A DNA stretch of 64,000 nt, from the NCBI RefSeq assembly GCF_014651375.1, contig NZ_BMWT01000002.1, positions 439,477 through 503,476 on the forward strand. The letters are read 5' to 3'. A model generated the notes under the pieces. It was not told the origin of the DNA, made no database searches, and worked only from the letters and a program-made list of their open reading frames with translations. The translations under genes were made by a program, and so were the position numbers. The first letter of the stretch is position 1. Every line of letters begins with the position of its first letter. This DNA comes from Tateyamaria omphalii (GTDB lineage Bacteria; Pseudomonadota; Alphaproteobacteria; Rhodobacterales; Rhodobacteraceae). This document shows, piece after piece, positions 9,553-40,866 of this stretch.

Positions 9553-9619
9553 CTCTCAAATCGTGATACAAACAGTGACGGCCTGCGAAAGACGGGGCGC
9601 ATTGATCGAGGGATTGAGC

Positions 9620-13151: not shown

Positions 13152-13154
13152 GGA

Positions 13155-20778: not shown

Positions 20779-21543
20779 TTACACTCTTTGGTTGTTGCGT
20801 TGAGAAATCGCCGAATATGCAAGCTTGGGTAGAATGGCAATGCATCGTGCATATCGCATGGCCAGACGGCGCGGGCTGCGTGCTGCGCGCCAAAGCCATT
20901 CCATGGACATCCGTCTGACCCACGCAGGCGCACGGGTTTGGTGCCCAGCAAGAAAGTCAATGCCAGCTCCGATGGAAGCGAAACCGATGTCAGGTGCGCG
21001 GCGGCGCCCAAAAGCAGCAAAACGTTCTTGCTTGGGCGCACCAAGAGCAACAAAGCACAAACCGACCTCTGTTTTTGCAAGCAGATCGAGTATTCTGGCG
21101 GCGTCTTCGCCTTCCGGGTCAAAACCAAAAGGTGGGGCGATTGTGTGCCTGATATCAATGTCAGGCACCTGCTGCTTCACTGCAATTGCTGCTGCTTTCA
21201 ATGCGGCTTCCGTGCTGCCAACAAAAGCCACCGGAACCTCATATCGTGCCGCCATTTTTAACAGTGGCAACATCAGATCAGACCCGGGCAGAAGTTCAAT
21301 TTGGCTACCCGCCAAACGAGAAAGCCAAACAATCGGATTTCCATCTGCGGTAACAAACTCATGTTGCGCATATGCGTCCTGAAAAGCCTTGTCGCTGTTC
21401 AATTTCACCACATGGTCGAGGTTCAGCGTCGCTAAAGCGAACCCTTGTCGACTGTCGAAACACTGGCCAACCGCTGTTTCCAAATCCTGACTCGACGGAA
21501 TCGTGATTTTAACGCTATGATCGCCTGCACTAAATTTAATCAT
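20779..21543 (-). CDS. WecG/TagA/CpsF family glycosyltransferase
   Basis: A 254-residue enzyme from ATG 21543; the frame stays open further upstream but that part lacks family similarity and would run into the divergent gene. Family motifs are ATLNLDHVVKLN, FVTADGNPIVWLSRL (the catalytic-type Asp region) and LCFVALGAPKQERF. Members transfer N-acetylmannosamine-type sugars to lipid-linked acceptors. It is divergent from the acyltransferase gene, with a 94-bp promoter gap. Confidence 0.9.
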   Translation of the reverse strand: MIKFSAGDHSVKITIPSSQDLETAVGQCFDSRQGFALATLNLDHVVKLNSDKAFQDAYAQHEFVTADGNPIVWLSRLAGSQIELLPGSDLMLPLLKMAARYEVPVAFVGSTEAALKAAAIAVKQQVPDIDIRHTIAPPFGFDPEGEDAARILDLLAKTEVGLCFVALGAPKQERFAAFGRRRAPDIGFASIGAGIDFLAGHQTRAPAWVRRMSMEWLWRAARSPRRLAMRYARCIAILPKLAYSAISQRNNQRV

Positions 21544-21637
21544 CGCTAACCATCTGGTTGTAAGAGAACAAAGAAATTGCGGATCGAACCGCCCGTCCGG
21601 GTCGTTCGATCTTGAATACTGGTAGTAGGGATTAGTC

Positions 21638-25080: not shown

Positions 25081-25296
25081 GAGAACGCCTATTAAGTAGC
25101 CGTAAACAAACCAAAATACACCTTATGCGAGAATAAGACAGATCAGCGTTTTATCTTGAACACACTACCGTGTTTTTTGTCCGCTGTGGCGTTTTGGGCG
25201 TAGGTCATGTAAGGTAGTTTCATTTAGAATTACGTAAAATGGCTGCCTCTTTTTTTTGCGGGGTGTACAAGCCGATTTTTATTGGAGTGTAGTTTT
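25081..25296. other. AT-rich intergenic region before the PKS-NRPS operon
   Basis: About 216 nt, clearly richer in A+T than its flanks. It includes the weak terminator-like hairpin, an ATTACGTAAAAT stretch near 25228, an eight-T run near 25250 and the ribosome site GGAGTG at 25284. It probably holds the main promoter of the 15.6-kb biosynthetic operon. I could not place a convincing -35/-10 pair. Confidence 0.6.
25159..25178 (+). terminator. Weak intrinsic terminator candidate after the GT2 gene
   Basis: AACAC (25159-25163) pairs with GTGTT (25170-25174) around a 6-nt loop and is followed by TTTT. The stem is short, so termination is probably partial. Confidence 0.4.
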
Positions 25297-28200
25297 GTGA
25301 CTAGTGGGTATGACTCTGGCTCGACAGATTCGAGCAATCACATCGCAATCGTCGGTATGGCAGCGCACCTGCCAGGCAGCGCTACACTGCATCAGTATTG
25401 GTCCAACCTGCGCGATGGCTTGGAAAGCATACGACAGTACAGCCAGGAAGACTTGCTGGCAAATGGCGAAGATCGCGCTCGCCTGCTCCATCGCAATTAC
25501 GTCCCGGCTGCCGCACCTTTGGATCGGTTCGCCGACTTTGACGCTGGTTTCTTTGGGCTCAGCCCAAAAGAGGCGGCAATCATGGACCCGCAACATCGCC
25601 AGTTCCTCGAGGTGGCGTGGGAAGCCTTGGAAACAGCAGGCCATCCCCCGGAAAAATTTGACGGTCCAATCGGAGTCTATGCGGGCTGCGGTATGGGCAG
25701 CTATTTCTATTTCAATGTTTGCTCGAACTCGGCATTGGTCGACGACGTTGGTATGTTCCTGTTGCGCCACACGGGCAACGACAAGGACTTCCTCGCTACG
25801 CGGGTCAGTCACGCCTTTGACCTCAAGGGTCCAAGCGTGAATGTCCAAACCGCGTGTTCCACATCGCTTGTCGCCATTCACTACGCTGTTCAAAGCCTGC
25901 AATCCGGAGAAACCGATCTGGCGCTGGCCGGTGGATCAACCATCGAATTGCCCCAAGGCCGTGGTTACATCTACGAAGACGGTGAAATCCTGTCGCCTGA
26001 CGGGCACTGCCATGCGTTCGACCATCGCGCACAGGGCACGGTGTTTGGCAGTGGTGCAGGCGTTGTGGCCTTGCGTCGTCTTGAGGATGCCATCGCCGAT
26101 GGGGATCACATCTATGCGGTGATCCGCGGCACAGCCATCAACAATGATGGCGCCGCCAAGGCCGGATACCTGGCGCCAAGTGTGGATGGACAATCCGCGG
26201 CGGTCGCCGAAGCGCTGGCCATGGCAGACACGCCAGCGGAAACGATTGACTACGTAGAATGCCACGGCACGGGTACAAACCTGGGCGACCCCATTGAAAT
26301 CGCAGCCCTGACGCAAGCGTACCGAGAAGGCACCGATCTTTCGGGATACTGCCGCGTTGGCTCGGTTAAAACGAACATTGGTCACCTCGACACCGCAGCG
26401 GGTGTCGCGAGCACGATCAAGGTGGCACTTGCGCTTGAAAATGAGCAAATCCCGCCAAGCTTGGGCTATGAGCGCCCAAACCCAACCATCGATTTCGAAA
26501 CCAGCCCGTTTCTGGTCAATGACAAGCTGACGGATTGGGTCAGCACGTCCGGGCCACGCCGCGCCGGTGTGAATTCGTTGGGCGTGGGTGGAACCAACGC
26601 GCACGCCATTCTCGAACAGGCCCCTGCCCCGGCCGCACATGAACCAAGCGATTGGCCAACACACATCCTGACCCTCTCGGCCCGTTCAACGGCAGCCCTT
26701 GATCAAGCCTCGGCCAATCTTGCGGCACATTTGCGGTCGAATCCTGATCAACCGCTGGAGGACGTGGCCTTCACGCTCAAGGAAGGTCGCCGGGCATTCG
26801 AAAAGCGTCGGGTCGTTGTTGCCGATACACATGAAGAGGCTGCCGACCTGCTAGAACGTGCCGACCTGCGCAGGGTGTTCACACACACTGATGTCGGGGA
26901 AGATGCCGACGTCGTCTTCATGTTCCCTGGGGGTGGGGCACAATATGTCGGGATGGCTCGAAACCTCTACGAGACGGAGCCGGTTTTTGCCGATTGGATG
27001 GATCAAGGCCTCGATATTCTGGATGGCAAGATCGACTATGACATTCGCGGCCTTTGGTTGGCGGAAGGTCCCGCAGCGATAGATGCCGAGGAAAAGCTGA
27101 AAACGCCATCGATCCAGTTGCCGCTGATCATGATCACGGAATACGCGCTGGCGCAGCTGTGGATGTCGTGGGGCGTGATGCCAACGGCCCTGATCGGTCA
27201 CAGCATGGGCGAGAACACCGCGGCATGCCTGAGTGGTGTCATGTCATTCGAGGACTGTATCGGTCTGGTCCATTTGCGCGGAACGCTCTTTGACCGTGTC
27301 CCACCGGGCGGCATGCTCAGCGTTCCACTGTCAGAAGACGAGTTGCGTGCCGAAGTCGGCAATGACCTGGACGTTGCCAGTGTCAACGCACCCGGGCTGT
27401 CCGTGGTATCGGGTCCGGATGGGAAACTGGCCGAACTCGCAGCGAAACTGGCGGAACGCGAGATCGAGGCGCAGCGCGTGCCGATCAATATCGCTGCGCA
27501 TTCACGTATGCTCGATCCGATCCTGCCCGAGTTTGAGGCCTACTTGCGCTCCATCCAGTTGAACGCGCCAACGATCCCGATCATGTCGAACAGGTCCGGT
27601 CAGGAGTTGACAGTCGAGGACGCAATCGATCCGACCTATTGGGTCAAACACCTGCGAAACTGCGTTCTGTTTGCCGATGGGATCGTAACGCTCGCGGAAA
27701 AACGCGACCGCGTCTACCTGGAAGTCGGCCCTGGCAAGACACTCAGCTCTTTGGCCAAAGCCAGTGGCAAAGTGGAAGCACAGGCGGTTCTGAACTCGCT
27801 GCGTCACCCGGACGAAGATATCGCGGATGACGTGTTCTTTCTGCAGACCCTCGGCCGCCTTTGGGGCACAGGGATCGACATCGACTGGGACCAGATATGG
27901 GGAGAGGCCAAGCGGCGGCGTGTGCCGCTGCCCACCTACCCGTTCCAACGCAAGACATACTATATCGAGCCAGCCGAGGGCGCGCGCGCCGAGATTGATC
28001 CACCGCTGATGAAGATAGAAGGGATTGAGGATTGGGGGTATGCGCCCACGTGGCTGCCCCGTACCGCCCCCTGTCAGGTGGATGTTGCACATGATCTGTC
28101 GCAAGCCGAAAAACACGTCTGGCTGGTGTTCTGCGACAAAGCCGGGCTTGGAACGCGCTGTATCGCGCCACTCCGGGCGGCTGGTCACACTGTGATCGAA

Positions 28201-31200
28201 GTTTGGGCCGGCGACAATTTCGTACAAACAGGCGAGACGTCTTACACTCTTGCACCCGAACGTGGGCGTGAGGGGTATGACCTGCTGTTCGCCAGCTTGA
28301 TGCAACGTGGCATTGCACCCAACCGTATTGCCCATTTCTGGCTGGTCACAAGGGAAGAAGAATTCCGCCCAGGATCAAGCTTCTTCCATCGCAATATCGA
28401 ACAGGGCTTTTACAGCTTGATGTTCATCGCACAGGCTGTGAGCGAAGAAGGCTTGCCAACGCCGATCCAGATGACAGTTGCAACCAGCGGCGCTGTGCAA
28501 ATCCGGGACGAAGCGCTGCCTTACCCTGAAAAAGCAACATTGGCGGGTCCGACGCGGGTCATCCCACGAGAGCTGCCGGGCGTGACATGCCGGTCCATCG
28601 ACATCACGCTGCCAGAAGCGCCACAGGGACGTTGGCGCAAGAAGGTGCCCGACGATGGTCTGGACGCAACAGCACAAGTGTTGCTTGAAGAAATGCTCGC
28701 TGAACCCGGCCAATCGGACGCAGCAGTACGCAATGGACGTCGCTACGAACTCAGTATCCAGAAGACACCGATGGATCCTGTCGAGAATTTGACCGACGCC
28801 GCACCGGACGCAGGTGTATGGCTCATTACTGGCGGCTTCGGCGGGATTGGCCTGACTGTTGGGGCGCAGTTGGCACGCCACACGAAGGCCAAGCTGGTTC
28901 TGGTGTCGCGTGGCGAACTTCCCGACCGCGTCAACTGGGACCGCGAAATTCGCGACCGGCATCCCGGAGACACGACGCGTCAACGCATCGAAGCCGTCAA
29001 GCAGCTAGAAGCCGATGGTGCTGACGTCATGACCGTTTCAGCGGATGTGTGCAACGTGACCCAGATGCAGGCAGCTATCGCAGCTGCTACGGAGCGCTTT
29101 GGCCCCATCGATGGCGTCATCCACGCAGCCGGAGCCATCAATGACGCACCACTTCTGACGAAAGATGTCAGTTCGGTGGAAAACGTGTTCTCTGCCAAGG
29201 TCCACGGTACGCAAGTTCTGGATGGGTTGTTCCCCGATGGATCCATAAAGGTGATGGTGCTGTTCTCATCGACCAGCACCGTTACCGCACCGGCAGGTCA
29301 GATTGATTACGTCGCCGCGAACGAATACCTGAATGCCTATGCAAAGGCGCGCAGTGGTGACGCAACCCGGGTGTTGGCCATCAACTGGGGTATCTGGAAA
29401 GATGTCGGCATGGCAGCCGAGGCGATGGCGGAACGTCAGGGTGACGTGCCGGAAGAAGAATACCGTCCTGTACAACTGCCGCTATTTGACGAAACCGGCT
29501 TCGACGCCACCGGCAACCGTGTCTATACTGCTGAATACACGCCTTCGGAACGCTGGATCCTCGATGAACACCGAACAATAGACGGTGCCGCGCTGGTGCC
29601 TGGAACCGGTTACATAGAACTCATTGCAGAGGCACTGCGCGGCAATGGGGAGGCAGGTGCATTTGAAATACGCGATCTGTACTTTTTCTCGCCGCTCCAA
29701 GTCGATGACGACACGCGTCGCGAGGTCCGTTTGAGCCTTGCACGGAGTGACGAAGGGTATCAGGTTGAGATCAGAAGCGATGTCCAGATGGATGGTCGCA
29801 CAGGCTACCACCTGAATGCACAAGCAACCGTCGCAATTGGTCACTTACCAACACCGGGTCAGATTGACCTGGCAACGATCAGGGCCCGAATGGACCGGGT
29901 TGAGAATGCGGCGCCCGGCAACACTCTGAAGTCGCTGCAAGAGGCAAACTTGCTGTTCGGCCCCCGGTGGCGCGTGCTTCAAAGCACGGCATATGGTCAG
30001 GATGAAGGCATTGCCGAGCTTACCTTGCCCAGCGCGTTCCGCTCCGATCTGAATGCTGGGGTCGAGGTGCACCCTGCCATTCTTGACCTCGCTACAGGTT
30101 GGGCAATGGAGCTCGTGCCGGGCTATGACCCGTCGCATCTTTGGGTGCCCGTTTCCTACGGTTCGGTTGCAATCCATGGGCCACTGCCTGCAACCATTCG
30201 CAGCTGGGTTCGTATTTCGAGCGAAGACTGCGGCGATGGTTCCGCCGCGTTTGATGTGACATTGACCGACACAGATGGCCTTGTGGTGATGGAGATCAAA
30301 GACTTCTCTATTCACCGGATCGAGGCAACGACAGCATTACAAACGACGAAGGCTGACACCAGTAGCATCCTCTTCCTGGACGATCCACAAGCAGAACATC
30401 GCGCACTTTCGCCCGCAGAAGAACGGCTGGCGCATAATCTGAGCCAAGGCATCGAACCAGCCGAAGGTGCTGAGGCCTTTGCACGTGCGCTGGCGCAGTC
30501 GCGGCCCCAGATCATCGTGTCCTCGCTGGATCCGGTAGGTTTGCACCGTCAGGTGGGCGCGTTGGCCGACACCGATACAGGCGAAGACAAAGCGTTCCAA
30601 CGCCCTGAAATTGAAAGCGATTTCGTTGCTCCGCGTAACGATATCGAACGTACTCTGGCCGGTTTCTGGCAAAGCTTGCTGGGGATTGAAACGATCGGCG
30701 TGGATGATAGTTTCTTCGACCTTGGCGGGCATTCCCTGATCGCCGTGCGATTGTTTGCAATGGTCAAAAAGACATATCGCGTGGAGTTCCCCATCTCTGT
30801 GCTTTTTGAATCTCCAACAATCGCCAGTATCTCGGAGCGGATTGCCGAACGTATTGGACATGACGGTACTGATGGCACTCCGGAAGCAGGTGACGACGCC
30901 TCCAAAGTACGGTCCGCACCAACCCAACGCAGATTCACGCATCTTGTGCCCATGCATAGCGGTGAAGGCGGTCAGAAGACGCCCTTCTTCCTGGTTGCAG
31001 GTATGTTTGGCAACGTGCTCAACCTGCGTCACCTCGCCAACATTATTGGGGCGGGCCGGCCATTCTTCGGGCTGCAAGCCAGAGGGCTTTACGGCGATGA
31101 CGCACCGCATGACACGCTGCAGGAAGCAGCCTCGGACTACATTGCCGAAATGCGGCAGGTGCAGCCAAATGGTCCATACCTGATTGGCGGTTTCTCAGGT

Positions 31201-31785
31201 GGTGGCCTGACCGCTTACGAGATGGCACATCAATTGGAAGAAGCTGGCGAGCAGGTCGATCTTGTTGTCATGCTCGACACGCCACTGCCATTGCGCCCAC
31301 CCTTATCCCGACAAGACAAGGCAATGGTCAAGCTGGGACACTTCCGCGAGAAAGGTCTGGGATACCTGATCGAGTGGGCCAAAGACCGCTACGCATGGGA
31401 AATGCGCAGGTTCCGCCCACAAGAGGAAGCGCCTGTTGATGCCCAATTCCATGACCAGGCCATTGAAGCAGCATTCATGAACGCACTGCCCCGCTACGAG
31501 CTGAAACGGTGGCATGGCAACGTTGTTCTGTTCCGTCCGCCACTGCAGAAACGGTGGAAGGTGTCTGGTGGACGCTATGTAACTGCAGACAAGGAATACG
31601 TTTACGATGACAATGATTGGGGACCATGGCTGGATAATCTGGCCGTGATCGAAGTGCCCGGAGATCACGACTCGATGGTGCTTGAACCCAATGTCAGGGT
31701 CCTCGCCGCGGAGATGCGACGTTGCATCGAAGAAGCCGAGGCGCTCTCAGTACTGTCAGTCCAAACACCAAAGGCAGCGGAGTGA
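25297..31785 (+). CDS. Single-module type I polyketide synthase (KS-AT-KR-DH-ACP-TE)
   Basis: A 2162-residue enzyme from GTG 25297 (GGAG 9 nt upstream; an in-frame TTG at 25282 is less likely). KS about 14-430: Cys187 in QTACSTSL, then VECHGTGT and KTNIGHL. AT about 540-840: Ser636 in GHSMGE; the specificity loop reads AAHS instead of malonyl-type HAFH or methylmalonyl-type YASH. KR about 1165-1400: TGGFGGIG, Tyr1338 in DYVAANEYLN. DH about 1410-1690: His1425 in EHRTIDGAALVPG and HPAILD. ACP: Ser1813 in LGGHSL. TE: Ser1967 in GFSGGG, His2124. No ER is seen. KR lies before DH, the reverse of the usual order. It should make a beta-hydroxy or enoyl product released by its own TE. It heads an operon with glycosyltransferases, so the acyl chain may decorate a sugar polymer or lipid. 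Confidence 0.93.
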   Translation: MTSGYDSGSTDSSNHIAIVGMAAHLPGSATLHQYWSNLRDGLESIRQYSQEDLLANGEDRARLLHRNYVPAAAPLDRFADFDAGFFGLSPKEAAIMDPQHRQFLEVAWEALETAGHPPEKFDGPIGVYAGCGMGSYFYFNVCSNSALVDDVGMFLLRHTGNDKDFLATRVSHAFDLKGPSVNVQTACSTSLVAIHYAVQSLQSGETDLALAGGSTIELPQGRGYIYEDGEILSPDGHCHAFDHRAQGTVFGSGAGVVALRRLEDAIADGDHIYAVIRGTAINNDGAAKAGYLAPSVDGQSAAVAEALAMADTPAETIDYVECHGTGTNLGDPIEIAALTQAYREGTDLSGYCRVGSVKTNIGHLDTAAGVASTIKVALALENEQIPPSLGYERPNPTIDFETSPFLVNDKLTDWVSTSGPRRAGVNSLGVGGTNAHAILEQAPAPAAHEPSDWPTHILTLSARSTAALDQASANLAAHLRSNPDQPLEDVAFTLKEGRRAFEKRRVVVADTHEEAADLLERADLRRVFTHTDVGEDADVVFMFPGGGAQYVGMARNLYETEPVFADWMDQGLDILDGKIDYDIRGLWLAEGPAAIDAEEKLKTPSIQLPLIMITEYALAQLWMSWGVMPTALIGHSMGENTAACLSGVMSFEDCIGLVHLRGTLFDRVPPGGMLSVPLSEDELRAEVGNDLDVASVNAPGLSVVSGPDGKLAELAAKLAEREIEAQRVPINIAAHSRMLDPILPEFEAYLRSIQLNAPTIPIMSNRSGQELTVEDAIDPTYWVKHLRNCVLFADGIVTLAEKRDRVYLEVGPGKTLSSLAKASGKVEAQAVLNSLRHPDEDIADDVFFLQTLGRLWGTGIDIDWDQIWGEAKRRRVPLPTYPFQRKTYYIEPAEGARAEIDPPLMKIEGIEDWGYAPTWLPRTAPCQVDVAHDLSQAEKHVWLVFCDKAGLGTRCIAPLRAAGHTVIEVWAGDNFVQTGETSYTLAPERGREGYDLLFASLMQRGIAPNRIAHFWLVTREEEFRPGSSFFHRNIEQGFYSLMFIAQAVSEEGLPTPIQMTVATSGAVQIRDEALPYPEKATLAGPTRVIPRELPGVTCRSIDITLPEAPQGRWRKKVPDDGLDATAQVLLEEMLAEPGQSDAAVRNGRRYELSIQKTPMDPVENLTDAAPDAGVWLITGGFGGIGLTVGAQLARHTKAKLVLVSRGELPDRVNWDREIRDRHPGDTTRQRIEAVKQLEADGADVMTVSADVCNVTQMQAAIAAATERFGPIDGVIHAAGAINDAPLLTKDVSSVENVFSAKVHGTQVLDGLFPDGSIKVMVLFSSTSTVTAPAGQIDYVAANEYLNAYAKARSGDATRVLAINWGIWKDVGMAAEAMAERQGDVPEEEYRPVQLPLFDETGFDATGNRVYTAEYTPSERWILDEHRTIDGAALVPGTGYIELIAEALRGNGEAGAFEIRDLYFFSPLQVDDDTRREVRLSLARSDEGYQVEIRSDVQMDGRTGYHLNAQATVAIGHLPTPGQIDLATIRARMDRVENAAPGNTLKSLQEANLLFGPRWRVLQSTAYGQDEGIAELTLPSAFRSDLNAGVEVHPAILDLATGWAMELVPGYDPSHLWVPVSYGSVAIHGPLPATIRSWVRISSEDCGDGSAAFDVTLTDTDGLVVMEIKDFSIHRIEATTALQTTKADTSSILFLDDPQAEHRALSPAEERLAHNLSQGIEPAEGAEAFARALAQSRPQIIVSSLDPVGLHRQVGALADTDTGEDKAFQRPEIESDFVAPRNDIERTLAGFWQSLLGIETIGVDDSFFDLGGHSLIAVRLFAMVKKTYRVEFPISVLFESPTIASISERIAERIGHDGTDGTPEAGDDASKVRSAPTQRRFTHLVPMHSGEGGQKTPFFLVAGMFGNVLNLRHLANIIGAGRPFFGLQARGLYGDDAPHDTLQEAASDYIAEMRQVQPNGPYLIGGFSGGGLTAYEMAHQLEEAGEQVDLVVMLDTPLPLRPPLSRQDKAMVKLGHFREKGLGYLIEWAKDRYAWEMRRFRPQEEAPVDAQFHDQAIEAAFMNALPRYELKRWHGNVVLFRPPLQKRWKVSGGRYVTADKEYVYDDNDWGPWLDNLAVIEVPGDHDSMVLEPNVRVLAAEMRRCIEEAEALSVLSVQTPKAAE

Positions 31786-31788
31786 AAC

Positions 31789-32790
31789 ATGGCTGACCCT
31801 CGCCTTCTTGTTGTTGTCCTGAATTTTCGCACGCCAGAAATGACGCTGCGCGCGGCCGAAGCAGCCTTGCGTGAGATGGAAGGTTTGTCGGCCGAAATGG
31901 TCATTGTCGACAACGAGTCCGGAGACGGATCGTTGGAAACGATGCGAACCGAAGCAGAGGCACGCGGTTGGACTGGAAATAGCCTTGTTCGTGTTGTCGG
32001 CTCGGGCCGAAACGGTGGCTTTGGCGCTGGCAACAATTTTGGCATTCGCCAACACATGTCTGACGGATCGATCCCGGATTTTGTGTATTGCCTAAACTCC
32101 GACGCCTTTCCCGATACCGGCGCGATCAAGGCGCTACTGGATGCAATTCAAGCCGACCCTCTGATCGGCATGGCGGGCAGCTATATTCATGGACCCGACG
32201 GGGTGCCGCACGAAACAACATTCCGCTTTCCGTCGATTGCCGGAGAGTTGGAGGGGGCCGCTCGTACAGGACCGATCAGTCGACTTCTCAAGAACTCCAT
32301 CGTGGCGCTCCCTGTTCCGGAGCAAAGCCGTCAGGTGGATTGGCTGGCAGGCGCCAGCGTTATGATGCGCCAGTCGATGCTGGATAAAATCGGCCTCTTC
32401 GATGAAACTTTTTTCCTCTATTTTGAAGAAACGGATCTGTGCAGACGGGCACATCTTGCCGGGTACAAGACCGTCTACATCCGCGAAAGCGAAGTGACGC
32501 ATATCGGATCAGTTTCCACCGGAATGAAGACGTGGGACCGGGTGCCCAGCTACTGGTTCGACTCGCGACGCTACTATTTCATCAAAAACCACGGTCGTCT
32601 TTATGCGACGATCGCGACCCTTGCCCATGTAACCGGAGCATTGATCTGGCGGCTTCGATGCGCCCTTTCACGGCGAAAAACGGATGATCCAAACCGCTTT
32701 CTCGCTGATCTTGTGCAGCACAGTCTCAGCACACAACCGCGTACAAAACACCATGCCGGACAAACTGCCGAAGTGACGACCAGTGACTAA
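31789..32790 (+). CDS. Glycosyltransferase family 2 (rhamnosyltransferase-like)
   Basis: A 333-residue GT-A enzyme located between the PKS and NRPS genes, 3 nt after the PKS stop. Motifs: LLVVVLNFRTPEMTL, VIVDNESGDGS, FVYCLNSDAFP (DxD-like region), VDWLAGASVMMRQ and FFLYFEETDLCRRA. This arrangement is typical of WbbL/RfbF-type rhamnosyltransferases, but the donor sugar is not proven. Its position inside the operon ties sugar transfer directly to the polyketide and peptide steps. Confidence 0.88.
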   Translation: MADPRLLVVVLNFRTPEMTLRAAEAALREMEGLSAEMVIVDNESGDGSLETMRTEAEARGWTGNSLVRVVGSGRNGGFGAGNNFGIRQHMSDGSIPDFVYCLNSDAFPDTGAIKALLDAIQADPLIGMAGSYIHGPDGVPHETTFRFPSIAGELEGAARTGPISRLLKNSIVALPVPEQSRQVDWLAGASVMMRQSMLDKIGLFDETFFLYFEETDLCRRAHLAGYKTVYIRESEVTHIGSVSTGMKTWDRVPSYWFDSRRYYFIKNHGRLYATIATLAHVTGALIWRLRCALSRRKTDDPNRFLADLVQHSLSTQPRTKHHAGQTAEVTTSD

Positions 32791-32817
32791 AGTTCTTTTG
32801 ATAACAGTGGTATTTTA

Positions 32818-35800
32818 ATGATGACCTTTTCTTCCATCCTGATCGGCGATGAGTCCCTACTCGTCCAGTGCGGAGAAATCCTTCGCGACCGCAATCACAC
32901 AATCGGCGCTGTTGTCACGCGTTCGCCTGCAATTGCAGATTGGGCACGCAATCAAGGTATTCGAACAGAAGAACCGGGGCGCGATCTGGCACAGCGCCTG
33001 TCAGGCCTCTCGGTAGACTGGCTTTTCAGTATAGCGAACCTGTCGCTGATCCCGCAGGACGTGCTTGCATTGCCAAGCAAGGGGGCGGTCAATTTCCATG
33101 ATGGTCCCTTGCCCGCATATGCGGGACTGAATGTTCCGGTATGGGCGCTGCTCAATGGTGAAACACAGCATGGCATCACGTGGCACATGATCACTGCCGG
33201 CGTCGACCGCGGCGACGTGGTGATGCGCAATTCGTTTGGAATTGAACCCGACGAAACCGCTTTCAGTCTCAATGCAAAATGCTTTGCTGCCGCAATCGAA
33301 AGCTTTACGCCACTTGTCGAAGCCATCGAAACAGACAGCTTGGCGCCAGAAGTGCAGGACTTCACAAATCGGACGGTTTACGCGCGTGCTGACAGGCCCG
33401 CAGGCGCTGGCCGCGTCGATTTCAACTGGCCGGCTCAAAAGATCGCGCAGATGGTCCGCGCGCTGGATCATGGGACCTATCGAAACCCGCTGACGACAGC
33501 CAAAGTCGATCTGGGCACACGTATCGCAAGTATCGGCTCTGCCAAGGTTGAAACGATTGATGTCGCCACCCCCGGCACCGTTGTGTCAGTCCATAGCGAC
33601 GCAATTGTTGTCGCGACGGTCGACGGAGGCATCGCATTGTCGGGCTTTTCTGACTCGTCTGGTACACCAATTCCCCTGTCCGATGTTGCCAAACCAGGCG
33701 ATATTCTTCCAACGCTGGACGACGTGGACATCTTGACCAATGCCTTGGCACAAGCAGCATCAGATGAAGCGCGCGTGTCTCAGTTGCTCACAGATCCCTT
33801 GCCGTCATCAACTGGGCTTGCAGGTGTAGCCACGCCGCAGCAGGTCGTCGCGCATTTACAAATCAAACTTGCCCACACACCGGAAACAGCACAGCTTGCC
33901 GGTCTCGTAGCCGCCGCTGCGCTGAACAGCACAGCAGAGGATGCCATAGACATCGCTTATGCAACTGATCCCGCACCCTGCCCTGCAGGGTATCTGAGCG
34001 ATTGGGTGCCATTGCGCCTGAAAGCTGGTGGAGATGTTACGTTTGCCACTCTGACCCAGAAAACGGCGGCTCAACTTGAACGCACCCGGGCTCATCCCGC
34101 CTTTCCTCTCGACATCGTTGTCCGCGATCCAGGCATCAGTGCAATCACGTCACCGGAACTTGGCCTGAGTGAAGCAAGCAAGGGTAACCTTATTGTCGGA
34201 ACTGCGCTGACGGTTCACATTTCGGATGGCGGCATGTCGCTGTTTTATGACAGCACTCGGGTGGATGCTGAAACTGCTCAGCTCTTCGCTGGCCGAATTG
34301 AAACAATCGCTGCCGCAGTTACGCAGGACGGCGAGATCGCCGTTGCTTCCATCCAAACGCTTTCGGGGCATGAACGGGAGTTGGTGACCCACGGCTGGAA
34401 CCAAACCGACGCAGATTATGATCGCGGCCTGACGATGCATGCCGCCTTCGAAGCGCAAGTGGCGCGCACACCTGACGCCACGGCCCTTGTCTTTGATGAC
34501 AAGAGTATGACCTACGCCGCTCTGGATGCGCGCGCGAACCAGTTGGCGCAGGTTCTGTGTGACATGGGCGCAGGTCCCGGGACATTTGTAGGATTGCACC
34601 TTGATCGTTCCATTGAGCTTGTCGTTGCAGGTTTGGCCATTCTGAAATCCGGCGCAGCCTATGTGCCACTTGATCCGGCCTATCCCGCTGACCGTGTTGC
34701 GCTGTATGTAGAAGACAGTGGTGCCCGGATTATCGTTACATCTCAAGCGCTGCACGATCAGGTGCCTGCGGGTAGCGCAGAGACCATTTTGATCGACGCC
34801 GACCCGCGCATCGACGCTGCACCGTCCAGCTCGGTTGACACGCGCGTTACGGCGAGCGACCCGGCCTATCTGATCTACACTTCGGGTTCGACCGGGCGAC
34901 CAAAGGGCGTTGTGCTTGAGCATCGCAATGCCGCGAACTTCTTTTGCGGCATGGACGCGCGGGTTCCGCACGAAGCATCCAGCACATGGCTGGCGGTCAC
35001 AAGCCTCAGCTTCGACATCTCTGTTCTCGAACTGTTTTACACACTTGCCCGTGGCTTCAAGGTTGTCATCGCCAGTGATGAGGCCCGCCTGACACCTTCG
35101 GACGGGACTACACGTTCTGAAAACGGCATGGATTTCAGCCTGTTCTACTGGGGCAATGACGATGGCGTTGGGCCCAAGAAATACGAGCTCCTGCTTGAAG
35201 GCGCCAAATTTGCAGATGAACACGGCTTCTGCGCCGTCTGGACGCCGGAACGGCACTTTGCCGCGTTCGGTGGCCCCTACCCCAACCCATCCGTCACCGG
35301 TGCAGCCGTTGCAGCCGTGACTAAAAACATTGGGGTCCGCGCAGGCAGCTGCGTTGCACCGCTGCACCATACAGCACGCATCGCGGAAGAATGGGCTGTG
35401 ATCGACAACCTGTCCAACGGTCGCGCGGGCTTGGCCATCGCATCCGGCTGGCAGCCGGACGACTTCCTGCTGCGCCCAGAAAACATGCCCCCCAACAACA
35501 AGCCCGCCATGCTGGAAGCCATCGAAACCCTCCGTAAGCTCTGGCGCGGCGAGCCTGTGGCATTCGATCGCCCGCTCGGCGGCACCATCGACATCGTTAC
35601 CCAACCACGTCCTGTGTCCAAGGAAGTACCCATCTGGGTCACAACCGCTGGCAACCCTGAAACATGGAAGGAAGCCGGTCGGATCGGTGCGAACGTTCTT
35701 ACGCACCTGCTGGGCCAAAGCATCGAAGAGGTCGCAGACAAGATCAAAATCTACCACGCGGCGCTCCGCGAGGTTGGCCGCAATCCCGCAGACCATACCG

Positions 35801-37497
35801 TCACGTTGATGCTGCACACGTTCCTCACGGATGATCGCGAAGTTGCACGTGAAATTGCCCGCGAGCCGATGAAGGACTACCTGCGCAGTGCGGCCGCCTT
35901 GATCAAACAATATGCCTGGGCTTTTCCGGCGTTCAAGAAGCCGCAAGGTGTTTCCAACCCCATGGAAATCGATCTTGGGTCGATGGACGAGGAGGAAATG
36001 GACGCCATCCTTGAGTTCGCCTTCCGCCGGTACTTTGAAGACTCGGGTCTGTTCGGGACGGTCGAAGACGCCGTACAGCGGGTCGAGGAGCTGAAGCAGA
36101 TCGGCGTGAACGAAATCGCCTGCCTGATCGACTACGGCATTTCGGTTCCTCAAGTGATGGAGGGGCTGAAACCACTGGCCAGAGTTCTGGAACAAACCAA
36201 CGTCGGAGCCGAAATCGACGAAGCAGACTTCTCGCTTGCCGCGCAGATCCGTCGCCACAAGGTCACCCATCTGCAATGCACGCCATCCATGGCGCGTTTG
36301 CTTTTGGCCGATCCGGGGGCCCGGATGGCACTGGGACGTGTCGAAAACATCATGATTGGTGGCGAAGCGTTGAGCGGAAAGCTGGCGCGTGAACTGTCGG
36401 ACATCAATGGCAGACCAATTCAGAACATGTACGGGCCGACGGAAACCACAATCTGGTCGTCGACTGAAATGACCAAAGGCGACGAAGCAACCGTCAATAT
36501 CGGTTTGCCGATCGCCAATACGCAATTCTATGTGCTTGATGCACAGGAACGGCCCGTGCCGATCGGTGTTCCGGGTGAGTTGTATATCGGCGGCGACGGC
36601 GTTGCGCGTGAGTACTGGCAACGTCCCGACCTGACGGCCGAACGGTTCCGCCCAGATCCTTTCGCCAAGGCCGAAGGTGCCCGAATGTATCGCACCGGGG
36701 ATCTTGTGAAATGGCGTCCGGATGGCCGTGTGGATTTCCTGGGCCGAGCCGACAACCAGCTCAAGATACGCGGATACCGTATCGAGTTGGGAGAGATTGA
36801 AGCGCTTCTTGATGCCCAACCGGGCATCAAGCAATCCGTGGTTGTCGCCCGAGAAGACAACTCAGGCTCGGTTCAGTTGGTCGCATACCTTGTTGCCGAG
36901 GGTCGCATCGCCATACCCGCGTTGCGGAGCGCGCTTTCGGGCAAACTGCCAGAATTCATGGTTCCGGCGCAGTATATGCAGCTTGATACATTCCCCCTGA
37001 CTCCGAACAAAAAGGTCGATCGCAAGGCCTTGCCGGTACACGTGCAGGCGGAGGCGGAGTCTACTGAAACGGCGGCGCCACAACCAGAGGCCGCACCGTC
37101 GGCAGCCCCGATTGGTAACGCTGTTTCGACCCAAGATGTCGAAGAGCAAATTGCCGCCGTTTGGAAGCGGGTCCTTGGAATTCCAAACGTGACAACCAAA
37201 GACAATTTCTTTTCGCTTGGAGGCCACTCGCTTTTGGCCGTCCAGGTGCATCGCGAGTTGAAAAGTGTATTGGGCCCGGGAAAGCTGAGTATCACCGACA
37301 TCTTCCGCTTTCCAACGTTGGGCGCCCTATCCAAGCACATTGCGCCGGAACCAGCTGCCGCGCCCGCATCGCCGGGCACCCCAACCGCTGCAGCAACAAG
37401 CGCAGAGCAAGGCACCGCACAAAGCCGTGCCCAGATGCGGGAGAACGCGATGTCGCGTCGTCGCGCGATGCGCGCAAATCGAAAGGCGGGAGCGTGA
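32818..37497 (+). CDS. NRPS-like enzyme: formyltransferase - condensation remnant - adenylation domain split by luciferase-like monooxygenase - PCP
   Basis: A 1559-residue protein. Residues 1-190 are a formyltransferase (methionyl-tRNA formyltransferase fold) with triad Asn92/His94 in VNFHDGPLP and Asp130 in GVDRGD; its C-terminal domain is about 195-290. Residues about 335-515 look like the C-terminal lobe of a condensation domain without HHxxxDG. Adenylation: TSGSTGRPKG near 687, SFDISVLE at about 731. A 350-residue FMN luciferase-like monooxygenase (about 770-1125, MupA/Atu3671-type) then interrupts it, before YGPTETT at 1205, YRTGDLVKW and NKKVDRKAL. My hand-read specificity code is D-I-L-Q-M-G-M-I-W-K, close to the published glycine code DILQLGLIWK. 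PCP: Ser1471 in LGGHSL. There is no TE. The likely product is a PCP-bound, N-formylated, oxidised glycine-type unit; release and acceptor are unknown. Confidence 0.92.
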   Translation: MMTFSSILIGDESLLVQCGEILRDRNHTIGAVVTRSPAIADWARNQGIRTEEPGRDLAQRLSGLSVDWLFSIANLSLIPQDVLALPSKGAVNFHDGPLPAYAGLNVPVWALLNGETQHGITWHMITAGVDRGDVVMRNSFGIEPDETAFSLNAKCFAAAIESFTPLVEAIETDSLAPEVQDFTNRTVYARADRPAGAGRVDFNWPAQKIAQMVRALDHGTYRNPLTTAKVDLGTRIASIGSAKVETIDVATPGTVVSVHSDAIVVATVDGGIALSGFSDSSGTPIPLSDVAKPGDILPTLDDVDILTNALAQAASDEARVSQLLTDPLPSSTGLAGVATPQQVVAHLQIKLAHTPETAQLAGLVAAAALNSTAEDAIDIAYATDPAPCPAGYLSDWVPLRLKAGGDVTFATLTQKTAAQLERTRAHPAFPLDIVVRDPGISAITSPELGLSEASKGNLIVGTALTVHISDGGMSLFYDSTRVDAETAQLFAGRIETIAAAVTQDGEIAVASIQTLSGHERELVTHGWNQTDADYDRGLTMHAAFEAQVARTPDATALVFDDKSMTYAALDARANQLAQVLCDMGAGPGTFVGLHLDRSIELVVAGLAILKSGAAYVPLDPAYPADRVALYVEDSGARIIVTSQALHDQVPAGSAETILIDADPRIDAAPSSSVDTRVTASDPAYLIYTSGSTGRPKGVVLEHRNAANFFCGMDARVPHEASSTWLAVTSLSFDISVLELFYTLARGFKVVIASDEARLTPSDGTTRSENGMDFSLFYWGNDDGVGPKKYELLLEGAKFADEHGFCAVWTPERHFAAFGGPYPNPSVTGAAVAAVTKNIGVRAGSCVAPLHHTARIAEEWAVIDNLSNGRAGLAIASGWQPDDFLLRPENMPPNNKPAMLEAIETLRKLWRGEPVAFDRPLGGTIDIVTQPRPVSKEVPIWVTTAGNPETWKEAGRIGANVLTHLLGQSIEEVADKIKIYHAALREVGRNPADHTVTLMLHTFLTDDREVAREIAREPMKDYLRSAAALIKQYAWAFPAFKKPQGVSNPMEIDLGSMDEEEMDAILEFAFRRYFEDSGLFGTVEDAVQRVEELKQIGVNEIACLIDYGISVPQVMEGLKPLARVLEQTNVGAEIDEADFSLAAQIRRHKVTHLQCTPSMARLLLADPGARMALGRVENIMIGGEALSGKLARELSDINGRPIQNMYGPTETTIWSSTEMTKGDEATVNIGLPIANTQFYVLDAQERPVPIGVPGELYIGGDGVAREYWQRPDLTAERFRPDPFAKAEGARMYRTGDLVKWRPDGRVDFLGRADNQLKIRGYRIELGEIEALLDAQPGIKQSVVVAREDNSGSVQLVAYLVAEGRIAIPALRSALSGKLPEFMVPAQYMQLDTFPLTPNKKVDRKALPVHVQAEAESTETAAPQPEAAPSAAPIGNAVSTQDVEEQIAAVWKRVLGIPNVTTKDNFFSLGGHSLLAVQVHRELKSVLGPGKLSITDIFRFPTLGALSKHIAPEPAAAPASPGTPTAAATSAEQGTAQSRAQMRENAMSRRRAMRANRKAGA

Positions 37498-38231
37498 TGA
37501 CTGAGGAATTGGATATCGCAGTTCTTGGTCAGCTCACCCGGGACCTGGTTGGTTCAGAAGTGTCAGTGGGCTACTCCGAACCGCAGCGCGGGAAAGAGGC
37601 GGACCTGATGGCCCCGGAACGCACGAGCATTGCCGGAATGGTGCCCAAACGTCTCCGCGAGTTTGCTGCCGGTCGCGCGGCCGTGCGCATGGCTGCCTTG
37701 GCACATGGCGACCAACCCTTTCCTCTGCCCATGGGGGCCGACCGTGCACCTCAATGGCCTGATGGGGTGATTGGCAGCATCGCACACACTGACAAAGCGT
37801 GTCTGGCCATTGTCAGCAGAGGCAAAAGCCTTGCGTCAATCGGCATTGATCTTGAACACGAACGTAGCCTGCCGCCAGCAGTGGCCGATGCAATTTCATG
37901 CCGCGCCGACCGTTGCAAAGGCCATACGGCCCAGCAGGAGCTGGGTGACCGGTATGACAGCGTTCTCTTTTCTGCCAAGGAAGCCGCTTACAAGTGTCAG
38001 TACCCTTTGTCGGGTACATTGATCGGCTTTGATGCGATGTCGATCCGGCTGTCCCCCGAGGATGGAACCTTTGTCGCCCAATTTGAGCAATCAGTTGGCG
38101 CATTTGATGCAGGTATGACCTTCAATGGTCGCTTTGCCTTTTGCGGTGGTCACGTTGTTACCACCGCTTGGATCACGAGCGCAGAATGGCTCGCTATCTC
38201 AGAGCATGGCTCAGGCATCGCCTATGGCTAG
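37497..38231 (+). CDS. 4'-phosphopantetheinyl transferase (EntD type)
   Basis: A 244-residue enzyme that loads the phosphopantetheine arm onto carrier proteins. Motifs: GSIAHTDKACLAIV, SIGIDLEHERSLP (Mg-binding Asp/Glu) and FSAKEAAYKCQYP. These match EntD-like members. The start ATG 37497 overlaps the NRPS stop by one base (TGATG). It should activate both the PKS ACP and the NRPS PCP of this operon. Confidence 0.93.
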   Translation: MTEELDIAVLGQLTRDLVGSEVSVGYSEPQRGKEADLMAPERTSIAGMVPKRLREFAAGRAAVRMAALAHGDQPFPLPMGADRAPQWPDGVIGSIAHTDKACLAIVSRGKSLASIGIDLEHERSLPPAVADAISCRADRCKGHTAQQELGDRYDSVLFSAKEAAYKCQYPLSGTLIGFDAMSIRLSPEDGTFVAQFEQSVGAFDAGMTFNGRFAFCGGHVVTTAWITSAEWLAISEHGSGIAYG

Positions 38232-39231
38232 CCGCAGGCGCATGGTTGCTGTTCCGCTTGCGCTTCTGGGTCTCGCGGCTTTGGGGTCGGCGGCCTATCT
38301 GTGGCGGTCAGCCACGCCGCCTGTGGCGCCACCACCCGGCCTGACCGCTTCCGAAATGCAGACGCTGTATGCAGCGCCCCCCACTCCGCTAACAGGTCAG
38401 GTTCGGGGTTTTCATATTGGCCACAGTCTGGTGGCACGAGACATGCCATCCATGCTTGCCCAACTTGCCGGTGGGGACTACGCCTATGAAAGCCAGCTGG
38501 GATGGGGAACGCCTTTGCGTGCCCATTGGGATCCGAAGGAAAAGATCAATGGCTTTGACGCGGAAAACGATCATCCCCTGTATCGTGACGCTCATGAGGC
38601 CGTTGACAGCGGGGACTACGACGCCCTGATCCTGACCGAGATGGTCGAGATACGTGAGGCCATCATGTACTTCCAAAGCTGGGAATACCTGCAAAAGTGG
38701 ACGAACCGCGCGCGTGAGGCAAAGCCTGACGTCAGAATTTTCTTCTATGAAACATGGTCAAACACGGACGACCCAGAGGGATGGCTAAATCGCCTTGACC
38801 TGGACCTCAACCGCTACTGGCTCGACGGTATCTTGCGTCCTGCCCTCGCAGAAAGTGATGCCCAAGGCGCGATCCATGTGATCCCCGGTGGGCAGGTGAT
38901 GGCGGCATTCCTGCGCGCGGTTGGGGCGACGAGTGGGTTGCCTGACGTTTCAGATGTCAATGACCTGATGACCGACACCATCCACTTCAACGATCTGGGC
39001 GCATATCTGATGGCCCTCACCCACTACGCCGTCATCTTCGGCCGCTCGCCAGAAGGCTTGCCGCATACTCTCAACCGAAGCGACGGAACACCTGCAACTG
39101 CACCAAGCGCGGAAACCGCCGCGTTGATGCAGAAAGTTGTCTGGGAGGTTGTCACCTCAACCCCACTAACCGGTGTCGTTGGCACCGACACAACTCCATT
39201 GGTCTTGAGCGAAGGGAAGGTTTCGCAATGA
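38224..39231 (+). CDS. Membrane-anchored SGNH-hydrolase-like protein
   Basis: A 335-residue protein from ATG 38224, which overlaps the previous stop (ATG 38206 is an alternative). An N-terminal membrane anchor (MVAVPLALLGLAALGSAAYLW) precedes a periplasmic SGNH-like domain: GFHIGHSLVARDMPSML (candidate Ser), FFYETWSN and DTIHFNDLGAYLMAL (candidate Asp/His dyad). It shares these three motifs with the next gene and with the RTX protein. It may act as the acyl- or aminoacyl-transferring or removing esterase for the polymer in the periplasm. It lacks the classical GDS sequence; block I reads GHS. Confidence 0.8.
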   Translation: MASRRRMVAVPLALLGLAALGSAAYLWRSATPPVAPPPGLTASEMQTLYAAPPTPLTGQVRGFHIGHSLVARDMPSMLAQLAGGDYAYESQLGWGTPLRAHWDPKEKINGFDAENDHPLYRDAHEAVDSGDYDALILTEMVEIREAIMYFQSWEYLQKWTNRAREAKPDVRIFFYETWSNTDDPEGWLNRLDLDLNRYWLDGILRPALAESDAQGAIHVIPGGQVMAAFLRAVGATSGLPDVSDVNDLMTDTIHFNDLGAYLMALTHYAVIFGRSPEGLPHTLNRSDGTPATAPSAETAALMQKVVWEVVTSTPLTGVVGTDTTPLVLSEGKVSQ

Positions 39232-40025
39232 GCTTGAAAGACATCGCACTCGATATCCTTTTCATTGGGCACTCCCTTGTCGGCCCGACGATGCCCGACA
39301 TGCTGGAAAACGCCGTATCCGCCATGGGCGGCACCGGTCAGGTGGAAGCGCAGATCATCAACGGTGCACCACTGGGTTACAACTGGGAACATGGCGCAGG
39401 CGCTGAAGGCGTGAATGCGAGGGCGGTTCTACCCTCCGGTGACTTCGAGGTTCTGGTCGTAACCGAAGGATTGCCGCTGGCGCCAGTGTCGGATTTCTGG
39501 CGCACGGCTGATGTGACCTATGACTACTATCAGGTTGCCACTGCCTCAAACCCATCCACGCAGGTGTTCATCTACGAAACCTGGCATAGTATCCTCAGCG
39601 GAACGGGCGCCACTATTGACGATGACCCCGGTCAGAACATCCCCTGGCGGACGCGGATCAATGACGATCTGCAAGTCTGGCAAGGGTTTGTCAGCGATGT
39701 AAATGCGCGCTTGGCACCCAACGCTCCCCCGGTACGTCTTATCCCCGCGGGTCAGGCGATGGGTCTGTTGAACGACCGCATCAAGGCGGGTCAGGTTCCG
39801 GGGTTGTCGGACATTTCGGACATTTTCACCGACGACATCCATCCAAACGGAATCGGAAACTACTTTGTGACCATGGTGATGTACGCGGCCATCTACGGCG
39901 CCGACCCGGATCCTCTGCCTCCAAGGCTCGGCGGGCAACCGGCCCCGTCCCCAGCATTGGCTGATGCTTTGCAAGAGATTGCCTGGGAAGCCGTGCGGGA
40001 AACCCCCGGCACGGGGCTGAATTAG
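39228..40025 (+). CDS. SGNH-hydrolase-like protein, close paralogue of the RTX protein N-terminal domain
   Basis: A 265-residue single-domain protein, start overlapping the previous stop by 4 nt. LDILFIGHSLVGPTMPDM, AQIINGAPLGYNWEHGA, VFIYETWHSILSGTG and DDIHPNGIGNYFVTMVMYAA align across the full length with the first 250 residues of the RTX protein at 3838-7689; by eye about half the residues are identical. No signal peptide or anchor is seen, so it may be cytoplasmic and could act on carrier-bound or lipid-linked intermediates. The catalytic Ser, Asp and His candidates are all present. Confidence 0.82.
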   Translation: MSLKDIALDILFIGHSLVGPTMPDMLENAVSAMGGTGQVEAQIINGAPLGYNWEHGAGAEGVNARAVLPSGDFEVLVVTEGLPLAPVSDFWRTADVTYDYYQVATASNPSTQVFIYETWHSILSGTGATIDDDPGQNIPWRTRINDDLQVWQGFVSDVNARLAPNAPPVRLIPAGQAMGLLNDRIKAGQVPGLSDISDIFTDDIHPNGIGNYFVTMVMYAAIYGADPDPLPPRLGGQPAPSPALADALQEIAWEAVRETPGTGLN

Positions 40026-40035
40026 GCACACCCCC

Positions 40036-40866
40036 ATGGCGACGATTATCATCCCTGCTAACAACGAAGAAGCCTATCTCGGGGCATGCTTGGACGCCTT
40101 GCTGGCATCCGATCCTACGCCTGACGTGGTGTGCGTAATTGTTGCTGCCAACGCCTGCACAGATGACACCGTGACGCTTGCCCAATCCCGCTCGACCGAT
40201 TTCCAGAAAAAGGGATGGGTTCTGCATGTGCTTGACCTGGCTCAACCCGGCAAGCTGAATGCCTTGAACGTGGCTGATGCACGCGCCGCCGACGGCCCGA
40301 GAATCTATCTGGACGCTGATGTCATCGTGACACCGCCGCTTCTGGCGCAACTTCTGGAAAAACTCGACCGATCCGACCCGACCTATGCCAGCGGAACACT
40401 TCGGATCAAACCAACCGGCGGGCTTGTTTGGCATGCCTACGCACGGTTCTGGGCCTCAGTTCCGTTCATGAGCCAGGGCGTTCCAGGCTGCGGATTGTTT
40501 GCCGTAAATGAAGCTGGACGGTCCAAGTGGGGACTGTTTCCCGACATCATCTCGGACGATACTTATGTCCGTCTCCTGTTCAAACCCGAAGAACGGCATA
40601 GCGTCGAGGCCAGCTACGACTGGCCGATCGTTTCAGGCTTCAAACGACTGGTAAAGGTGCGGCGCAGGCAGGACCGCGGTGTCGCTGAGATAGAAGAACG
40701 CTACCCCGAGCTGCTCGATAACGACGACAAGTTGCCGATGGGGACGACGGGGCTGTTGCAGCGTTTCCTGCGTAACCCGCTTGGTTTCATGGCGTATTGT
40801 TCCGTGGCATTGGCAGTACGTTACATGCCCGCGGCCGCAGAAACGGAGTGGGCGCGAGGACGTTAA
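40036..40866 (+). CDS. Glycosyltransferase family 2
   Basis: A 276-residue GT-A enzyme: ATIIIPANNEEAYLGACLDAL, VIVAANACTDDTVTLA, IYLDADVIVTPPLL (DxD) and FPDIISDDTYVRLLF (acceptor-site acidic pair). It is the last gene of the rightward PKS-NRPS operon, 10 nt after the SGNH gene, and its end overlaps the convergent gene by 4 nt. The acceptor is unknown. Confidence 0.86.
   Translation: MATIIIPANNEEAYLGACLDALLASDPTPDVVCVIVAANACTDDTVTLAQSRSTDFQKKGWVLHVLDLAQPGKLNALNVADARAADGPRIYLDADVIVTPPLLAQLLEKLDRSDPTYASGTLRIKPTGGLVWHAYARFWASVPFMSQGVPGCGLFAVNEAGRSKWGLFPDIISDDTYVRLLFKPEERHSVEASYDWPIVSGFKRLVKVRRRQDRGVAEIEERYPELLDNDDKLPMGTTGLLQRFLRNPLGFMAYCSVALAVRYMPAAAETEWARGR

Follow-up and report, generated by a model that had tools for sequence, protein, structure and literature searches.

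A hybrid polyketide-peptide cassette within an exopolysaccharide locus of Tateyamaria omphalii suggests a surface role for an orphan Roseobacter gene cluster

The window analysed here is a stretch of 64,000 nucleotides from Tateyamaria omphalii (contig NZ_BMWT01000002.1, positions 439,477 to 503,476). It contains a cassette of seven closely packed plus-strand genes (25282 or 25297 to 40866), which encode, in order, a type I polyketide synthase (PKS), a GT2 glycosyltransferase (GT2c), a nonribosomal peptide synthetase (NRPS)-like enzyme, a 4'-phosphopantetheinyl transferase (PPTase), two SGNH proteins (SGNH1 and SGNH2) and a second GT2 glycosyltransferase (GT2d). Domains were assigned by Pfam and NCBIfam, and the PKS was resolved into ketosynthase (KS), acyltransferase (AT), ketoreductase (KR), dehydratase (DH), acyl carrier protein (ACP) and thioesterase (TE) domains. 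The PKS gene has two candidate start codons, TTG at 25282 and GTG at 25297. It is separated by 3 nt from the GT2c gene, which is followed after 27 nt by the NRPS-like gene. Base 37497 is common to the stop codon of the latter and the ATG of the PPTase gene, which in turn overlaps the SGNH1 gene if ATG 38224 serves as its start, while the two SGNH genes overlap by 4 nt and a gap of 10 nt precedes the GT2d gene. The order PKS-GT2-NRPS-PPTase is repeated in several genera. An antisense open reading frame (ORF) beneath the NRPS-like gene (34150 to 36834, minus strand, 894 open codons) was discarded as probably a coding or codon-bias shadow. The genes and domains of the cassette are as follows.

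25282 to 31785, plus strand: type I PKS, 2167 amino acids, with KS, AT, structural KR, KR, DH, ACP and TE (Pfam)
25336 to 26631, plus strand: KS domain of the PKS (Pfam)
26914 to 27873, plus strand: AT domain of the PKS, motif IAAHS (Pfam and alignment)
28813 to 29403, plus strand: KR domain of the PKS (Pfam)
29506 to 30330, plus strand: DH domain of the PKS, missing from the natural variant G085 (Pfam)
30652 to 30843, plus strand: ACP of the PKS (Pfam)
31060 to 31731, plus strand: TE domain of the PKS, putative release or transfer step (Pfam and alignment)
31789 to 32790, plus strand: GT2c, 333 amino acids, between PKS and NRPS (Pfam)
32818 to 37497, plus strand: NRPS-like enzyme, 1559 amino acids, with a formyltransferase, the C-terminal lobe of a condensation domain, an adenylation (A) domain interrupted by a luciferase-like monooxygenase (LLM), and a peptidyl carrier protein (PCP) domain (Pfam, NCBIfam and hhalign)
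32818 to 33708, plus strand: formyltransferase domain with N92, H94 and D130 (Pfam)
33751 to 34428, plus strand: condensation domain represented by its C-terminal half, without the HHxxxDG part (hhalign)
34435 to 35094, plus strand: first part of the A domain, a1 to a4 (Pfam and comparison with solved structures)
35134 to 36186, plus strand: LLM (FMN-type), inserted between a4 and a5, TIGR04020 (NCBIfam)
36232 to 37032, plus strand: second part of the A domain (Pfam)
37144 to 37341, plus strand: PCP domain, Ser 1471 (Pfam and alignment)
37497 to 38231, plus strand: PPTase (Pfam)
38224 to 39231, plus strand: SGNH1, ORF from 38125 with ATG 38224 the likely start, N-terminal hydrophobic segment by eye
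39228 to 40025, plus strand: SGNH2, with relatives that are fused to a second domain resembling glycosidases (sequence and fold comparison)
40036 to 40866, plus strand: GT2d (Pfam)

The cassette is surrounded by genes of an exopolysaccharide (EPS) locus, and further glycosyltransferases and sugar-modifying enzymes flank it. The initiating sugar transferase, the Wzx flippase and the export protein all exceed their Pfam cut-offs; the Wzy, Wzc and kinase matches fall below theirs, and gene order and conservation are consistent with a Wzx/Wzy-type locus. In the 4.75 Mb genome, a threshold of E 0.001 left one match each for WecG and Wzx, both inside the window; ExoY had one remote relative elsewhere in the genome. 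A first-pass annotation of this DNA had described seven touching or nearly touching genes on one strand, flanked by a Wzx/Wzy-type pathway. All seven are present on the plus strand with the domains it named, and they do lie in an EPS locus, though with sub-cut-off matches for Wzy and Wzc. The principal genes around the cassette are listed below.

3838 to 7716, minus strand: RTX protein bearing SGNH and glycosidase-like domains
8701 to 9453, plus strand: ExoY-type initiating sugar transferase (Pfam)
9563 to 10234, plus strand: Wza-type polysaccharide export protein (Pfam)
11583 to 13973, minus strand: Wzc-type chain-length regulator and kinase-like protein, split over two genes (Wzz and ParA-type matches below cut-off)
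20779 to 21681, minus strand: WecG/TagA/CpsF glycosyltransferase, which tracks the cassette across genomes (Pfam)
21638 to 22612, plus strand: AT3-type (PF01757) membrane acyltransferase (Pfam)
22616 to 24010, plus strand: Wzy-like polymerase (Wzy_C, E 0.013, below cut-off)
24016 to 25080, plus strand: GT2 glycosyltransferase GT2b (Pfam)
41795 to 43165, plus strand: Wzx flippase (Pfam)

Relatives of the NRPS-like protein were found at E 1e-150 or better in 142 of 394 genomes (393 genera) of the Rhodobacteraceae. A class-wide sample gave matches at 1e-200 in 7 of 385 genomes and a phylum-wide sample in 11 of 299; five and seven of these, respectively, belong to the same family (the T. omphalii genome included in both). 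Named relatives occur in Ruegeria, Phaeobacter, Gemmobacter, Pararhodobacter and Paracoccus denitrificans. To sample loci systematically, we kept each fifth row of matches from the family search, which gave 26 genomes, and examined approximately 40 kb around each match, less at contig ends. Genes were called as best hits among window proteins, and weak classes such as GT4 may therefore mix enzymes. The PKS was present in all 26 sampled loci, the PPTase in 25 and GT2c in 24. EPS genes were frequent (Wzc1 22, Wzx 21, WecG 21, Wzc2 19, Wzy 17, ExoY 13, Wza 1), and so were GT4 (21), GT2a (18), GT2d (17) and RTX (16), with SGNH1 relatives in 10. At least two of these seven EPS markers were found in 23 of the 26 loci. 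Furthermore, 20 of 32 named loci were counted; all 20 carried at least one marker and 18 at least two. Among the remainder, L050, L062 to L067 and L069 are distant, and the omitted L041, L051, L053 (short) and L068 also carry the NRPS-like and GT2c genes.

Across the family, GT2c was detected in 134 of the 142 genomes with the NRPS-like gene versus 2 of the 252 without, and the PKS in 139 of 142 versus 5 of 252. The two GT2c-positive genomes scored as NRPS-negative (G085 and G097) carry a cassette without the LLM that falls under the NRPS threshold, and among the five PKS exceptions three (G022, G258 and G355) match only in part, at 41-44% identity. All three PKS misses (G147, G273 and G359) and four of the eight GT2c misses (G118, G158, G216 and G273) come from genomes assembled in 300 to 540 contigs. 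The remaining GT2c misses are G144, G185, G217 and G292, discussed below. A WecG search of 124 genomes (taken as G000 to G123 from 70 of 124 listed) returned WecG in all 46 genomes with the NRPS-like gene versus 4 of 78 without (G077, G085, G097 and G104). The gene lies within 25 kb of the cassette in 39 of the 46, further away on the same contig in 2 and on another contig in 5. Fisher values for these co-occurrences are merely indicative, because related genomes are not independent. The check proposed earlier for this locus, co-occurrence of the NRPS-like protein with EPS genes, was thus strongly positive with a few exceptions, and it is well supported that the cassette usually belongs to one EPS pathway. 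No further shared neighbour family was found in more than 6 of 46 loci when other ORFs were clustered after filtering; a first clustering of unassigned ORFs had yielded antisense shadows and was replaced by this filtered repeat.

The association extends beyond the family. In G901 and G1004, the PKS and NRPS-like genes sit among ExoY, WecG and GT4 genes, with a Wzx-type gene in G1004, and in G673 a Wzz-type gene and sugar genes lie close to the PKS/NRPS-like pair. Four of 28 plasmid records were inspected (Ruegeria conchae, Aminobacter, Shinella and Aliiroseovarius). Both the Aminobacter and the Shinella plasmid, from another order, hold an EPS locus that includes the PKS, NRPS-like and PPTase genes, with no GT2c between them. 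On the Ruegeria conchae plasmid NZ_CP081104.1 (L159), a gene annotated as exosortase XrtD (VPLPA-CTERM) and dTDP-rhamnose genes are found close to the cassette, and a tie to EPS/exosortase sorting is possible there. Separately, contig C9 of G000 (L002 to L006) carries another set of adenylation-domain genes, possibly a different NRPS cluster.

Conservation within the NRPS-like enzyme was read from an alignment of 54 rows (the window, the 26 sampled loci, 20 named loci and seven others, namely L050 and six stretch pairs; L009 to L037 were unused). The pocket of the A domain, read over both of its parts, has the ten residues DILQMGMIWK, and the consensus DILQ[MLFYV]G[ML][IV]WK holds in 54 of 54 rows, one of them gapped at the last position. 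Our analyses of the sequence thus give good support to the prediction that this domain loads glycine. Asn, His and Asp of the formyltransferase are kept in 53, 52 and 54 of the 54 rows, respectively, and ArnA and Fmt rank first in a fold comparison of the domain; together with the glycine-type pocket, this conservation favours the formyl-aminoacyl unit suggested by the first-pass annotation. The inserted monooxygenase scores 476 bits against TIGR04020 (cut-off 244), and its nearest solved relative is PuwE (6ket, E 2.9e-104), part of a lipopeptide synthetase. Between the formyltransferase and the A domain, hhalign matched columns 203-481 of a 483-column condensation template with 98.5% probability, the template having been built from 28 stretches that were selected for an HHxxxDG motif and probably include a few spurious ones. 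A weak Pfam condensation match falls at the same place, and the assignment rests on hhalign because the VIA-align rows barely covered that region. Absence of the catalytic half of the condensation domain is accordingly a well-supported reading of the protein. Given that the formyltransferase occupies its place, the enzyme is predicted to be a starter module.

In the PKS, the active residues (KS C/H/H, AT S, KR S/Y, DH H/D, ACP S and TE S/H) are invariant wherever covered among 51 rows, and the Ser adjoining the KR Ser is replaced by Ala in 8 of them. The AT domain carries IAAHS in place of the usual motifs HAFH and YASH, and a Pfam domain search found no enoylreductase (ER) domain. The single PKS module gives no indication of a long polyketide chain, although it may be used iteratively.

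The cassette is not without precedent, and here the first-pass annotation, which knew of no published system matching this set of genes, has to be corrected. Its four-gene core (PKS, glycosyltransferase, NRPS and PPTase) has been reported as conserved in the Roseobacter lineage, in 28 of 57 genomes, with an uncharacterised product (PMC4337385), and PMC5014874 likewise describes it as conserved among roseobacters with no product assigned; both cite Martens et al. (2007) for the original description. The cassette contains the four genes by which these sources define the orphan PKS/NRPS cluster, and locus L052, from Ruegeria sp. ANG-S4, a strain of PMC4337385, provides an indirect tie. According to PMC4337385, the product and function of the cluster ought to be worked out. 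In contrast to the present analysis, the accessible portions of the two accounts offer neither domain chemistry nor a polysaccharide link, and the string 'saccharide' is absent from their main texts; the literature searched, of which the original 2007 description was not part, held no such link in the portions available. What is new is therefore the EPS link and the predicted chemistry, while the four-gene core was already known as an orphan cluster. Genome mining of Rhodobacteraceae found hybrids of NRPS-like and type I PKS genes in 18 of 37 species, and the Roseibaca domitiana hybrid, with an NRPS gene of 4527 nt and a PKS gene of 6333 nt approximately 1 kb apart, resembles the cassette (PMC10584327). 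That work, in the text available, treats the hybrid as a possible source of antibiotics or antitumour agents and does not contain the words 'exopolysaccharide', 'saccharide' or 'glycosyltransferase'. For Phaeobacter inhibens, PMC4062626 lists a PKS, Inhi_1972, and an NRPS, Inhi_1974.

For the NRPS-like enzyme, two kinds of module offer comparison. In glycine modules, glycine is hydroxylated by a monooxygenase sitting between a4 and a5, and the modules of myxothiazol and melithiazol have it at the same position of a glycine A domain (PMC10204066). Those modules end the chain, whereas the NRPS-like enzyme has a formyltransferase in front and, instead of the complete condensation domain of the myxothiazol type, solely a C-terminal half. 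The initiation module LgrA of linear gramicidin (6mfz and others) shares an N-terminal formyltransferase, with the N/H/D residues, ahead of the A domain and carrier; it shows no monooxygenase insertion in the alignment, and the similarity of the formyltransferases is weak (23 bits). As for the surroundings, the initiating transferase, flippase, export protein and glycosyltransferases are shared with Wzx/Wzy-type EPS loci, Wzy and Wzc matching more weakly; unlike the usual loci of this type, the window locus incorporates a carrier-protein assembly line. The RcGTA capsule loci were rejected as a counterpart, as no PKS appears in the available text of PMC10218006.

On this evidence, we lean slightly towards the view that the cassette is an acyl-modification branch of the EPS pathway, in which a glycine starter is formylated and oxidised and then extended by the PKS. 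The PPTase, judged from its family, would prime both carrier domains, and the A domain, whose pocket residues are visible and whose specificity is predicted from them, would load glycine onto the PCP. The formyltransferase, with its domain and residues in place beside the missing HHxxxDG half, would then N-formylate the PCP-bound glycine, and the LLM may oxidise the alpha carbon of the carrier-bound glycine, as suggested by its position and the myxothiazol/melithiazol modules. The starter would pass to the PKS module, whose domains could add an extender, reduce it and dehydrate it. This flow from the NRPS-like starter to the PKS is proposed because of gene order in four relatives: the NRPS-like gene lies upstream of the PKS in G673 and G731, and in G144 and on the Aliiroseovarius plasmid the module comes ahead of the PKS portion of a larger, ordinary NRPS/PKS line, without GT2c in G144. 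The TE would release the short acyl chain or pass it to a sugar within the lipid-linked repeat unit, and GT2c might either glycosylate the acyl unit or produce the acceptor for it. The decorated polymer would then be flipped, polymerised and exported by Wzx, Wzy, Wzc and Wza, and the SGNH proteins might trim or move ester groups. An N-formyl-oxyglycyl group with one extender would be an example of such a unit; the structure and attachment of the acyl group and the role of GT2c are put forward as predictions.

Natural variants bear on which steps are fixed. Cassettes lacking the LLM in G085 (L146, 4177-13828) and G097 (L147, 6193-16515) have GT2c, EPS neighbours and the glycine pocket, which is kept in G144 as well; the G085 cassette additionally lacks the PKS DH. 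In these samples, glycine therefore appears to be the fixed part, while other steps vary. G244, G155 and G147 were dropped as further LLM-less cases, their contigs ending within the gene. Chances are evenly balanced that, more generally, a surface polysaccharide of Rhodobacteraceae and some Hyphomicrobiales is decorated with, or partly built from, a glycine-started polyketide unit assembled on carrier proteins by an NRPS-PKS pair of secondary-metabolic origin, with a constant glycine and with formyltransferase, monooxygenase and dehydratase steps that differ among species.

Several observations weigh against this proposal. None of the seven EPS markers was found in approximately 40 kb in G217 and G276, G292 has solely a Wza-type match, and G185 has no marker within 20 kb. 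As the PKS and NRPS-like genes adjoin without GT2c in G185 (L153), G217 (L148, L136/L137) and G292, GT2c and the EPS surroundings tend to go missing together. No match to window EPS proteins was found in 34 kb of G731 and 25 kb of the Acidimicrobiales locus L050, and the arrangement in G144 and on the Aliiroseovarius plasmid implies that the module is not an EPS enzyme by itself. Furthermore, the usual Rhodobacteraceae order PKS-GT2-NRPS is the reverse of the proposed flow, the formyltransferase motif of G097 is degenerate, and WecG is unlinked in seven genomes, five of them possibly just through contig ends. The pocket positions and the glycine signature are taken as general background, and the signature did not occur in the literature searched.

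Three of these relatives have neighbourhoods worth recording. In G731 (L082/L083), the NRPS-like and PKS genes adjoin genes for a thiamine pyrophosphate-dependent enzyme and a glutathione S-transferase, not EPS genes. L050, from an Acidimicrobiales metagenome-assembled genome far outside the Proteobacteria, encodes a near full-length relative with 41% identity, with no PKS in the available stretch. The plasmid NZ_CP081154.1 of Aliiroseovarius sp. M344 (L162) carries the module in stand-alone form, with an NRPS/PKS gene of 9.2 kb after it and no EPS genes in the examined stretch.

Within the same EPS branch, the oxidised N-formylglycine could instead be cleaved as in myxothiazol release, giving a glyoxylyl thioester starter and formamide, so that the final group would be free of nitrogen. 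This is an unlikely alternative with real precedent, as cleavage gives a glyoxyl thioester in myxothiazol and melithiazol, where the a4-a5 monooxygenase and glycine pocket are the same (PMC10204066). Solanimycin B, according to the same source, retains hydroxyglycine, and the two EPS cassettes without the monooxygenase keep the glycine pocket, from which it follows that glycine itself can serve.

We regard as rather improbable that the product is a free diffusible small molecule, such as a signal, an antimicrobial or a metallophore, placed at EPS loci through shared regulation, for example in biofilms. Published work, in the parts available, does class the cluster among secondary metabolites, the module has relatives in ordinary NRPS/PKS lines, and the cassettes of G185, G217, G276 and G731 have no EPS marker nearby. 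On the other hand, WecG tracks the cassette as described above, the EPS context recurs in two orders, and in the clustering, where no family exceeded 6 of 46 loci, neither a dedicated exporter nor a resistance gene was seen to travel with the cassette. It is quite doubtful that an iterative PKS makes a long acyl chain, glycosylated by GT2c, as the lipid anchor of a polysaccharide or glycolipid: a single PKS module beside a glycosyltransferase, its KR and DH active residues kept, would suit this, as would the precedent of the rkp-1 genes (a fatty-acid-synthase-like PKS) for the K antigen/capsule lipid of Sinorhizobium meliloti, but the ER domain is absent, the starter pocket is of the glycine type, and DH was lost in G085 though the locus persists.

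Returning to the acyl-modification branch, its SGNH proteins are candidates for action on ester groups of the polymer. The best Pfam match of SGNH1, to DUF4886, is below threshold (E 0.00093, 18.7 bits, cut-off 26.7), and SGNH2 has no Pfam match. The SGNH part of a fused SGNH2 relative has a fold like GDSL/SGNH esterases (best E 1.9e-4), in a model with a mean pLDDT of 64.7 overall, the SGNH part being well modelled and the glycosidase-like part poorly, and its residues S51, N82, D235 and H238 are invariant in 13 rows. Through this relative, the SGNH2 type shows the fold, Ser, Asn and Asp-x-x-His of the SGNH/GDSL superfamily, in which SGNH1 is placed only by its similarity to the SGNH2-type relative. 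The second domain of the fused relatives also follows the SGNH domain in the RTX protein of the window, which has in addition a cadherin-like domain, calcium-binding repeats and, by eye, glycosidase-like E motifs. Relatives of the RTX protein sit within the same EPS loci.

Our analyses suggest that co-occurrence with EPS genes in the sampled relatives points to a role for this long-unexplained cluster. The EPS tie and the predicted glycine building block turn the orphan Roseobacter cluster into a testable question of polymer chemistry. If the reading is true, clusters counted as secondary metabolism in Rhodobacteraceae would serve cell-surface chemistry, providing an extra carrier-protein route to polysaccharide modification, and they would matter for biofilms and for living on algae and animals.

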